Of a stretch of DNA of 64,000 nucleotides, positions 31,271 to 33,891 are shown one piece after another. Numbering within the stretch: the first letter of the stretch is position 1; the number at the start of each line of letters is the position of its first letter. Origin of the DNA: Candidatus Bathyarchaeia archaeon (GTDB taxonomy: Archaea > Thermoproteota > Bathyarchaeia > 40CM-2-53-6). A program made the translations under genes and the position numbers. The notes under the pieces are model-generated. The model searched no databases and was not told the origin of the DNA. It saw only the letters and a program-made list of their open reading frames with translations. The DNA lies in NCBI GenBank assembly GCA_035935655.1, contig DASYWW010000040.1:186001-250000 (forward strand), in the 5' to 3' direction.

Positions 31271-32287
31271 ATGAACCTGGAATTGATGCGCTATTTTTCC
31301 CGACAAACGACAGTCCAAGAGATTGGAGTTGCAGGCCTTGCGAGGTTGCAATCAGCCAAGCTAGCGGTCGTAGGTACGGGAGGAGTTGGAAGCGCCGCGG
31401 CCTACTTTCTAGCCAGCCAAGGCATAGGACACCTGAAACTAATCGATCAGGACATTGTTGAAGAGAGCAACCTGCACCGGCTAATCGGGGTGGAGAAGAA
31501 GGATCTTCACCAGCCAAAGGCAGAGGCGCTCGCGCGAAAACTGAGCTCGCGTCACCCATGGACAGAAACCGAAGCAATAGTTGAGACGCTCCGATCAGGC
31601 AACATTTCGCAGCTGTTAGATGACATAGAGTTGATTGTTGATGGGACGGATAACCTCCGGACAAGATATCTTCTAAACAGGTTTGCCATGGAAAACCACA
31701 TTCCCTATCTGTTCACGAGTGCGATCGCGAACCAGGGCCACCTCTCCCTGTTCAATCCTCCAGCCACCCCATGCCTTGAGTGCCTGATACCCAACTCGGG
31801 CGTAGAGTCCGTAGAAACGTGCGAGTTCACAGGCGTAACCCCTACGGTCGTTGGGATCATCGGGACTCTCGCAGCAACAGAGGCTGCAAAGAAAGTGCTT
31901 GAACTGCCCACAAGAATTCAAGGGCGCTTGCTGACTATAGATCTGGCAGGACCAGACTTCGTGTTCACAACGATCGCGAAGAAGCAGAACTGTGATGTAT
32001 GCAACGGCTCTTCACACAAGACGATTGCATCAGACAAGGTGGTAATGTTATGCGGCGACAATGTTGCCAATATCTTCCCCAAAAGAGATGTTGTAATAGA
32101 CCTTCAATCCCTCAAAACCAGGGTTCCAAAGGAATCAGTAGTCGCCAGTTCGGAGTCAGTCTTTGTTTACACCAAACAGCTCCACAGAGTATCTGTCTTC
32201 AAGACAGGTCGACTGCTTATCGGAAATGTCCCCACAGAAGAAGCGGCGAGGCAAATTGCGAGCGAAATCTGGAAGGAGATACTCTAA
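31271..32287 (+). CDS. ThiF/MoeB/HesA-family E1-like adenylyltransferase
   Basis: 338 residues. The ATP-binding core has LAVVGTGGVGSAAAYFLASQ and LIDQDIVEESNLHRL, then LIVDGTDNLRTRYLLNRFA. Two zinc Cys pairs are present: TPCLECLIP and NCDVCNG. A candidate catalytic Cys is in VETCEFTGVTPTVVG. About 85 residues follow the zinc site, ending TKQLHRVSVFKTGRLLIGNV. Such enzymes activate ubiquitin-like sulfur carriers (SAMP, MoaD or ThiS) by C-terminal adenylation. No MoaD/ThiS gene is adjacent, so protein modification versus sulfur transfer stays open. Confidence 0.88.
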   Translation: MNLELMRYFSRQTTVQEIGVAGLARLQSAKLAVVGTGGVGSAAAYFLASQGIGHLKLIDQDIVEESNLHRLIGVEKKDLHQPKAEALARKLSSRHPWTETEAIVETLRSGNISQLLDDIELIVDGTDNLRTRYLLNRFAMENHIPYLFTSAIANQGHLSLFNPPATPCLECLIPNSGVESVETCEFTGVTPTVVGIIGTLAATEAAKKVLELPTRIQGRLLTIDLAGPDFVFTTIAKKQNCDVCNGSSHKTIASDKVVMLCGDNVANIFPKRDVVIDLQSLKTRVPKESVVASSESVFVYTKQLHRVSVFKTGRLLIGNVPTEEAARQIASEIWKEIL

Positions 32288-32369
32288 CGTTAGAACGAAC
32301 TACCACTTAGCTCGGATTCAGTTCATGGCCACCGTCGGGCATCCGGGAAACAGCCTGGTTTTCAACAAG

Positions 32370-32377
32370 CTTATACA
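32370..32377 (+). promoter_or_regulatory. TATA box of the tRNA-Cys gene
   Basis: CTTATACA, predicting transcription near 32399-32402 and a leader of about 15 nt before the mature tRNA 5' end at 32416. Confidence 0.5.
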
Positions 32378-32423
32378 GTTCAGGCAAGCTCGGTCCAAAT
32401 TGCCGGGGGCACGAGGCCGGGGT

Positions 32424-32439
32424 TGGCTTGTCCACCGAA
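32424..32439 (+). other. tRNA-Cys intron 1, between positions 8 and 9 (16 nt)
   Basis: Removing these bases gives T8-G9 and a normal D-arm. The bulge-helix-bulge has outer pairs GGC/GCC (32415-32417 with 32441-32443), central CGG/CCG plus a G-A mismatch, 5' bulge GTT, 3' bulge AAG and an inner GG/CC hairpin. The mismatch makes exact cut sites less sure than for the other two introns. Confidence 0.65.
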
Positions 32440-32468
32440 GGCCGATCGGCTCAGGCGACGGGCTGCAG

Positions 32469-32483
32469 ATAAATCTCGTAGCA
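32469..32483 (+). other. tRNA-Cys intron 2, canonical 37/38 position (15 nt)
   Basis: The anticodon stem forms the outer helix. Exon bases CTGC (32463-32466) pair with GTAG (32478-32481) as a four-pair central helix. The 3-nt bulges are AGA and CAA, each cut after the second base. This is an ideal bulge-helix-bulge with an 8-nt loop and no inner stem. Confidence 0.88.
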
Positions 32484-32494
32484 ACCCGTAGTAA

Positions 32495-32517
32495 GCATCC
32501 AGCAATGGATGGCTGAA
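32495..32517 (+). other. tRNA-Cys intron 3, between positions 48 and 49 (23 nt)
   Basis: Outer helix CCCG (32485-32488) with TGGG (32519-32522); central helix TAGT with GCTG (includes two G-U pairs); bulges AAG and AAG; inner six-pair stem CATCCA/TGGATG with a GCAA tetraloop. Excision leaves the standard five-base variable loop. Confidence 0.85.
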
Positions 32518-32586
32518 GTGGGTTCGACTCCCACCCCCGGCTCCACGACATAGATGGATCGTCTTGTAGCGAAACGGGATTGAATC

Positions 32587-33891
32587 TTAGACTGAAGGTT
32601 GAATTGGGGGAGCTTTGGCCGCGATTCCCTTCATCCGTCTTCTCGCAATCCAGACGCCTGCCCCAATCAGAGCGATGGCTACTATTCCAAGAACACCATA
32701 CACCCACGGTAGCCATCCGGCGGAAAGCAGAGGGGATCTTGGCTGTCCTGGATTGCTGTTGCGAGGTCCGGCTCCACCATTTGTTTCGGAGGATCCTGAA
32801 CTGGATCCGCTCCCAGCGTTGGTTCCAGAGTTCGACCCTGAACTCGTCCGTGAGCCCGCACCTGAACCAGATCCCGAAGTCGACTGAGACCCACTGGTTT
32901 GAGACGGGCTTGTCTGGCTCATCGAATGGGTCAGGCTGACGGTGGTGCTAGCAAGCTTCAGCGCGGCCTGAATGTCAATGCCGAATTCTCTCATTAGCAT
33001 CGTCGGGCTAGACGCTGGAAGGCACGCGCTAGGCGAGATGGGCGTACTGCACGGGGTTGGCTGAATCGTTGTTTCTACTCCAAACCCAATGTGAATGTCT
33101 GCGTTCGCAGTGAGGAGGAGGTCACTGGCCTGGTCGTAGTTGAATGTGAAGGCCACTTCCGAGTTGTCGCGAATGGGAATCGATGATGTTGAGGTAGTTG
33201 CTGGCTCTGGAGGGATCAATGGCCGCGAGAGACTGTAGGCTAACGTCCATGCTGTTCGAGTTCCTAGGGTACCTCCGAGATCTACGCTTGATGCCCTTGT
33301 AACGTTTGTTGGGAGCACGAACACCGGAATTGTCTGATTGAGCTTGAGGGGTCCGTTCACCCACCACATAGTGTAGAGTGGTCGATTCATCATCGTGTTG
33401 TCGAGAATCGACATTGATGAGCTCCAACTGACACCCGTGGGCAAAATAGTAGCCATGTTGGTCTGAGCCATTTGGAGGGCTTGATCGATTTCCGGCACGA
33501 TAATTGGGAGGAGAGTAACTATTCTGGTAGCTAGGTTGACCGACTCGATGAAACTGCCCGAGCTGCGGGTGACGGAAGTGCTGAGGTCGCCGTAGGATAT
33601 CATGAGGTCTCGAGTGAGGTTCATGGATGCCGTGGTGCTATTGAGATCGGTCGCTGTCCAGCCGAGAGTTCCGTTGACGTCGATAGTCGAAGGCAGCGTC
33701 GCTATCATGGGGCATACGATCAGGCTGCTCGAAGATGAGGTTCCTACTCCGCAAGACTGGAGGAAAGAGATTGAGGCTGACAGATTGTAGATGGCCTGGT
33801 TCCCCTTTTGAAGGGAGGGAGCTGCACTCGCAGGAACCATAGCGAGAAGCAGTAACGCTAGGATTGCCAGTGTCAGACTCGTTCGCTTCAT
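32587..33891 (-). CDS. Secreted surface protein with Ser/Gly linker and C-terminal membrane anchor
   Basis: 434 residues: a signal peptide (LTLAILALLLLAMVPASAAP), about 290 residues of beta-rich ectodomain with Ser/Thr-rich and probable N-glycosylation sites (NLT, NST, NGT), a low-complexity linker of Ser, Gly and Asn (about residues 315-375), then one membrane helix (WVYGVLGIVAIALIGAGVWI) and a basic stop-transfer RRRMKG. The layout is that of archaeal S-layer-associated or pilin-independent surface proteins. I recognise no enzymatic domain. Confidence 0.65.
   Translation of the reverse strand: MKRTSLTLAILALLLLAMVPASAAPSLQKGNQAIYNLSASISFLQSCGVGTSSSSSLIVCPMIATLPSTIDVNGTLGWTATDLNSTTASMNLTRDLMISYGDLSTSVTRSSGSFIESVNLATRIVTLLPIIVPEIDQALQMAQTNMATILPTGVSWSSSMSILDNTMMNRPLYTMWWVNGPLKLNQTIPVFVLPTNVTRASSVDLGGTLGTRTAWTLAYSLSRPLIPPEPATTSTSSIPIRDNSEVAFTFNYDQASDLLLTANADIHIGFGVETTIQPTPCSTPISPSACLPASSPTMLMREFGIDIQAALKLASTTVSLTHSMSQTSPSQTSGSQSTSGSGSGAGSRTSSGSNSGTNAGSGSSSGSSETNGGAGPRNSNPGQPRSPLLSAGWLPWVYGVLGIVAIALIGAGVWIARRRMKGIAAKAPPIQPSV

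Follow-up and report, generated by a model that had tools for sequence, protein, structure and literature searches.

Among the described systems, the multi-intron tRNA genes of Thermoproteales come closest to the gene reported here. They carry up to three short introns bounded by bulge-helix-bulge (BHB) motifs at canonical and non-canonical sites, are served by a splicing endonuclease (EndA) of the (alpha-beta)2 type, and some of their introns can be removed only successively (PMC8450103). Three introns, at positions 25/26, 37/38 and 56/57, have been reported for the tRNA-Pro of Pyrobaculum islandicum (PMC4090602). There are precedents for three introns in one archaeal tRNA and for forced sequential removal (PMC8450103, PMC4033280), and a forced removal of introns one after another is already known for archaeal tRNAs with closely spaced introns (PMC8450103). 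The tRNA-Cys(GCA) gene described below shares these traits, and as a three-intron gene it belongs to the known kind of archaeal multi-intron tRNA genes, but unlike the genes of Thermoproteales it is found in mesophilic soil Bathyarchaeia, its introns are in part at other positions, and its leader contains a conserved copy of the acceptor strand, for which no counterpart was found in the literature searched. Isotype and number of introns agree also with the tRNA-Cys(GCA) of the Guillardia theta nucleomorph (cited in PMC4090602), which differs from the present gene in that it is eukaryotic and has introns of 3-24 nt; the citing passage does not mention a leader copy.

Two other kinds of unusual tRNA genes resemble the present one at the 5' side. 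In the split tRNAs of Nanoarchaeum and Caldivirga, the leader helps to build the structure that is cut by EndA, as may be the case here, but in those organisms two transcripts pair in trans, whereas here there is one colinear transcript, the leader of which would pair with the mature 3' strand and not with an intron. In the permuted tRNAs of Thermofilum pendens (PMC3218864), it is the distance from promoter to tRNA that signals an odd 5' architecture, and this is so here as well; however, no half of the tRNA has been moved in the present gene, and the extra piece upstream is a duplicate of nt 1-7.

The gene lies in a window of 64,000 nucleotides, which is the whole stretch of DNA that was analysed, on contig C40 of a genome of 2.5 Mb (65 contigs, 95.8% complete). 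The host is a soil Bathyarchaeota archaeon, and its closest named relatives are soil metagenome assemblies of Candidatus Bathyarchaeota. The initial annotation had proposed a tRNA-Cys(GCA) gene with introns of 16, 15 and 23 nt at positions 8/9, 37/38 and 48/49, and this proposal holds: the spliced product of 32416-32545 is 76 nt long, has U8, the anticodon GCA, U73 and CCA, and is called tRNA-Cys(gca) by ARAGORN, and the same arrangement recurs in 16 other genomes. In the unspliced window, neither ARAGORN nor the Rfam tRNA model at gathering scores detects a tRNA. A second, intron-free tRNA-Cys(GCA), which in the initial annotation would speak against the gene if the present copy were unexpressed, was looked for in the host genome with the spliced sequence, with a pattern search and with the Rfam tRNA model, and no second tRNA-Cys was found by any of them. 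The features of the locus are listed in Table 1.

Table 1. Features at the tRNA-Cys(GCA) locus, in coordinates of the window
Feature	Position	Strand	Remarks
ThiF/MoeB-like (E1-type) neighbour gene	31271..32287	+	synteny with the tRNA kept in a large part of the genus
Promoter, BRE/TATA-like CAACAAGCTTATAC	32363..32376	+	no variation of the core CAAGCTTATAC in 16/16 family genes
GCCGGGG, duplicate of the 5' acceptor strand in the leader (leader copy, copy 1)	32402..32408	+	invariant in 17/17 genes with an 8/9 intron
Spacer between the copies	32409..32415	+	G32415 (-1) is the partner of C12 in the intron-1 motif
Exon 1 (tRNA nt 1-8, GCCGGGGT)	32416..32423	+	agrees with intron-free orthologues GCCGGGGTGGCC...
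Intron 1, position 8/9, 16 nt	32424..32439	+	BHB; in 17/17 genes
Exon 2 (nt 9-37, anticodon GCA within)	32440..32468	+	
Intron 2, position 37/38, 15 nt	32469..32483	+	BHB
Exon 3 (nt 38-48)	32484..32494	+	
Intron 3, position 48/49, 23 nt	32495..32517	+	BHB
Exon 4 (nt 49-76, U73 and CCA within)	32518..32545	+	

A covariance model was built from two spliced sequences and searched against 257 Bathyarchaeia genomes, with matches in all of them. The strongest matches, of up to 96 bits, are contiguous intron-free tRNA-Cys genes (GCCGGGGTGGCCGA...), and because a model made of spliced sequences matches such genes, the gene model is far beyond chance. The intron-free orthologues carry T8 and G9, and intron 1 is therefore fixed at 8/9. 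An alternative register of intron 1, with the hairpin UUGGCUU/AAGGCC as central helix, was rejected, as it yields no U8/G9 with canonical bulges, while the intron-free orthologues have T8-G9.

The three introns are shared by 16 genomes of the family of the window (f1) and by one genome, G021, of the sister family f2, which gives 17 genes. There is one three-intron gene per genome in the 16 family genomes, G005 has a fragment truncated at a contig end, and in the window genome and 15 other family genomes this gene is the only tRNA-Cys found, with the exons intact throughout. All 17 genes, when spliced, give a 76-nt tRNA-Cys(gca) according to ARAGORN, with the same plan as the intron-free orthologues, and a split or permuted arrangement is contradicted by the exons, which are colinear within 130 nt in the 17 genes. 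In most other Bathyarchaeia the tRNA-Cys is intron-free with the same exons; in the same order, the intron at 37/38 is the sole one of families f3 and f5, f4 and G026 (f2) have those at 37/38 and 48/49, and f1 and G021 have all three. Across the 17 genes the introns measure 16-18, 14-17 and 12-24 nt, respectively, and their loop sequences differ, with the exons nearly constant. Judged by sequence comparison, this is the pattern of real introns that were gained stepwise, and there is hardly any doubt that the three-intron tRNA-Cys is real as a gene model.

Some observations from the same genomes may be added. No tRNA-Cys was found by the searches in G004, G007, G019 and G020, and several among these four and G030, G031, G032 and G036 are incomplete genomes. 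G037 has two tRNA-Cys-like genes (L115, L132) that differ in sequence and have one 37/38 intron each. In the host genome, many other tRNA genes are interrupted, several of them apparently more than once (matches of 85-123 nt), so that this genome appears to be rich in tRNA introns, notwithstanding its relatives from soil. Adjacent intron-free genes for tRNA-Ile(GAT) and tRNA-Ala(TGC) in the same assembly (G000:C19:1798-2043; L001, L002), which lie on a 5-kb contig, look bacterial and may be a contamination of the bin.

Also the surroundings of the gene deserve mention. On the 3' side of the tRNA, the minus strand of the window (32587-33891) encodes a secreted or membrane protein of 434 aa that has a Ser/Gly-rich stretch, followed by a C-terminal helix. 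The tRNA-Cys resembles an integration site (L067:3757-5110 in G014 and L153:1591-2940; compare L159, L146, L154 and L145). In G015, G010, G016 and G018 the tRNA is immediately followed by a conserved stretch (AAGAAAGAAGCCTGACGTGCCGTTACTCAAA...), which in G014 is found 1.3 kb further on, behind a duplicated, att-repeat-like 3' end of the tRNA (CCACCCCCGGCTCC); an Rfam search with this stretch returned no match.

The standard BHB geometry, which was applied here, consists of an outer helix, a central helix and, on both sides, a 3-nt bulge that is cut after its second base, and it fits every junction of all three introns in 17/17 genes. In the case of intron 1, nt -1, 1 and 2 form the outer helix with nt 10-12, the central helix CGG(G)/(A)CCG has 3 bp and a G.A mismatch that is invariant in 17/17 genes, and the bulges are GUU and AAG; the motif thus pairs exon 1 (nt -1 to 5) with the intron's own 3' end and with nt 10-12 of the D-stem. 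Intron 2 uses the anticodon stem as outer helix, with CUGC/GUAG as central helix and AGA and CAA as bulges. Intron 3 has an outer helix CCCG(39-42)/UGGG(50-53), a central helix UAGU/GCUG, the outermost pair of which is U.G, U-A or C-G across the genes, AAG bulges on both sides, and an inner helix of 6 bp. The only exception to a full 4-bp geometry for introns 2 and 3 is one G-G at intron 2 of G011. A BHB at each intron had been claimed in the initial annotation, and as to the 3-nt bulges this is true throughout; what has to be corrected is the central helix of intron 1 with its one mismatch.

The 37/38 and the 48/49 motifs are mutually exclusive because both use nt 39-42. Neither the T-stem nor motif 2 can form together with motif 3, and the acceptor stem and the D-stem are incompatible with motif 1, so that the introns must be removed sequentially. 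An order of splicing and folding had already been deduced from the re-pairing of exon 3 with the T-stem by the third intron, and the constraint goes further than claimed: the 48/49 motif takes nt 39-42 from the 37/38 motif, and an order is imposed also at the 5' end, where the 8/9 motif takes the 5' acceptor strand from the acceptor stem. In folding calculations, the motifs cost about 7, 3 and 3 kcal/mol for introns 1, 2 and 3 in the full transcript.

The host genome has two genes of the EndA family. The product of the first (189 aa) finds its best match in the alpha chain of the (alpha-beta)2 enzyme of Aeropyrum pernix (3p1z, E = 1.7e-41), its catalytic His is kept, and its K42 aligns with K44 of A. 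pernix, the Lys of the Crenarchaea-specific loop; the product of the second (173 aa) is a beta-like chain. A broad-specificity EndA of the heteromeric type had been postulated from the introns, together with a check of the genome for its subunits, and the two subunit genes and the loop Lys and catalytic His of the alpha chain agree with this at the sequence level. The Crenarchaea-specific loop has been tied to diverse intron positions (PMC6379350, PMC12397907), and the present pair of EndA chains, with the loop Lys in the alpha chain, fits this known link.

The sequence from 32416 onward does not suffice to understand the gene, as its leader holds an essential-looking element that the initial annotation had missed, together with the strict linkage of this element to the 8/9 intron. 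GCCGGGG, the first seven bases of the tRNA, occurs a second time 14-20 nt upstream of the acceptor strand, and this copy is found unchanged in each of the 16 family genes and in G021, that is in every gene with the 8/9 intron, whereas it is absent within 60 nt upstream of 34/34 tRNA-Cys genes without that intron. Since G021 has the copy and its family mate G026 does not, copy and 8/9 intron come or go together, though only few evolutionary events underlie this linkage. Over the 25 nt that separate TATA and copy, the mean pairwise identity is 43% and no column is invariant, while the copy is 100% conserved; the spacer from the copy to the tRNA is of variable sequence and has 7, 8, 10 or 13 nt, and position -1 before the tRNA is G in 16/17 genes and A in G021. 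From the start of CTTATA to the copy there are 32 nt in 16/16 family genes, and to G1 of the tRNA 46-52 nt. In the other tRNA genes of the family, the tRNA begins 30-36 nt behind TATA, a few outliers with weaker TATA calls excepted, and because the copy lies at this usual distance, the transcript is expected to start at the copy or just before it. Of about 45 other tRNA genes examined, none has its own acceptor strand copied upstream (the longest shared k-mer was 5 of 7). To the extent that this could be checked, the obligate leader copy is a new feature: neither such a copy nor tRNA introns of Bathyarchaeota were found in the literature, but key works on the topic lay beyond the search, and this absence is weak evidence.

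Two genomes show variants of the leader. In G021 (L169), the G at -1 that pairs with C12 precedes copy 1 and not copy 2, and either copy may serve in the motif. In G018 (L076/L159), a T follows also copy 1 (GCCGGGGT), so that a single long 8/9 intron that holds copy 2 gives a correct tRNA as well; this arrangement is possibly the ancestral state. For the genes in general, one long intron reaching from copy 1 to G9 was rejected, as position 8 would be G, A or another base than U, except in G018.

We lean towards the view that the leader copy is a stand-in for the 5' acceptor strand during the removal of intron 1 from the only tRNA-Cys(GCA) gene found. This view builds on features that sequence and comparison show, namely the exons and introns, the BHB geometry, the conservation of the copy, its linkage to the 8/9 intron and its position relative to the promoter, and the genes for EndA and RNase P RNA, and from there we infer the stand-in pairing, the strand exchange and the order of events. 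EndA would cut out all three introns. As the BHB of intron 1 is made from the 5' acceptor strand and nt 10-12 of the D-stem, the acceptor stem cannot coexist with it, and the G+C-rich 3' acceptor strand would normally draw the real 5' strand off this motif. The leader transcript would begin with the copy, which would engage the 3' acceptor strand by base pairing and so free the real strand for the cutting of intron 1. Once this intron has been removed and the ends ligated, the real strand would displace the stand-in, and RNase P, the RNA of which is encoded in the genome, would remove the leader. Introns 2 and 3, with nt 39-42 in common, would be removed singly.

When two defined states were folded, the motif-1 state differed from the acceptor-stem state by -1.3 to 5.5 kcal/mol with the copy, versus means of 7-12 kcal/mol with random 7-mers, and in the predicted intron-1 state copy and 3' acceptor strand are joined by 7 bp in 16/17 genes and by 6 bp in the other. 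This gain in the folding model arises partly by construction, as pairing with the 3' strand is open to every exact copy, and may be taken as support, not as proof. If the energy is related to the whole ensemble of each transcript, composition-preserving shuffles of the copy are nearly as good and the true copy is not separated from them, because G-rich shuffles pair with the 3' strand too. It counts against the stand-in that the predicted minimum is not the intron-1 motif, which costs about 7 kcal/mol and has a G.A within the central helix. The acceptor strand is invariant in these genomes, and there is no covariation between copy and 3' strand to read.

It is unlikely that the gene has three introns with a copy unrelated to splicing, such as one that sets the start site, aids promoter escape, shields the 3' end or lets a modification enzyme recognise the precursor. 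Such a role would account for the fixed distance from TATA, the location at the expected start site and the pyrimidine that precedes the copy in 16/16 family genes, but not for an exact match to the gene's own acceptor strand that is seen in no gene lacking the 8/9 intron; among the other tRNA genes examined, none is preceded by a full duplicate of its own acceptor strand.

Another reading, which we regard as distinctly improbable, counts four introns: 32402-32408 would be the true exon 1, and the second copy would be part of an extra 14-nt intron at 7/8 (32409-32422, carrying GGCCGGGG), so that U8 (32423) alone would make up an exon of one nucleotide ahead of the 8/9 intron, and the mature sequence would be unchanged. 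The copy is exactly where tRNAs usually start relative to TATA in these genomes, and an odd promoter distance has exposed misread tRNA 5' ends before (PMC3218864). It is indeed possible to draw a BHB at 7/8, with bulges of 3 nt and a CCGG/CCGG helix of 4 bp, but CCGG is self-complementary, so that this helix is automatic once the strand is duplicated; moreover, the outer pairs of the motif are wobble or mixed only and are lost in G021, and the motif costs about 22 kcal/mol in the full transcript as compared to 7, 3 and 3 for the others. Copy 2 is also conserved beyond the needs of a 7/8 motif, RNase P RNA is present, and three introns per tRNA are the archaeal maximum in the literature searched. 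That the gene is degenerate or mispredicted, i.e. a non-functional copy or an assembly artefact, can practically be dismissed: the gene is missed by standard finders and comes from a metagenome assembly, but it is the sole tRNA-Cys found, with intact exons, in the window genome and 15 family genomes, has fixed exons while the introns vary, and looks the same in independent assemblies.

It is fairly likely that one of two things holds: either the stand-in closes the acceptor stem and 8/9 splicing takes place before 5' maturation, or the stand-in serves as exon 1, with U8 as an exon of a single nucleotide between two introns, the duplicated acceptor strand being obligate for maturation in both cases.

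As a warning, the tRNA finders used here overlook a tRNA that is essential, and do so throughout one family of environmental archaea. Also, tRNA-intron-rich genomes are added for the mesophilic Bathyarchaeia, a group for which the literature searched describes no tRNA introns. If the stand-in reading is true, intron-1 splicing would precede the maturation of the 5' end, contrary to Methanopyrus kandleri, for which 5' maturation before splicing has been reported (PMC3695527). It would also give a concrete, testable answer to how introns can be removed if their splice motif competes with stems of the tRNA itself: the tRNA gene would have evolved a cis-acting placeholder strand that lets an intron occupy the junction between acceptor stem and D-arm.
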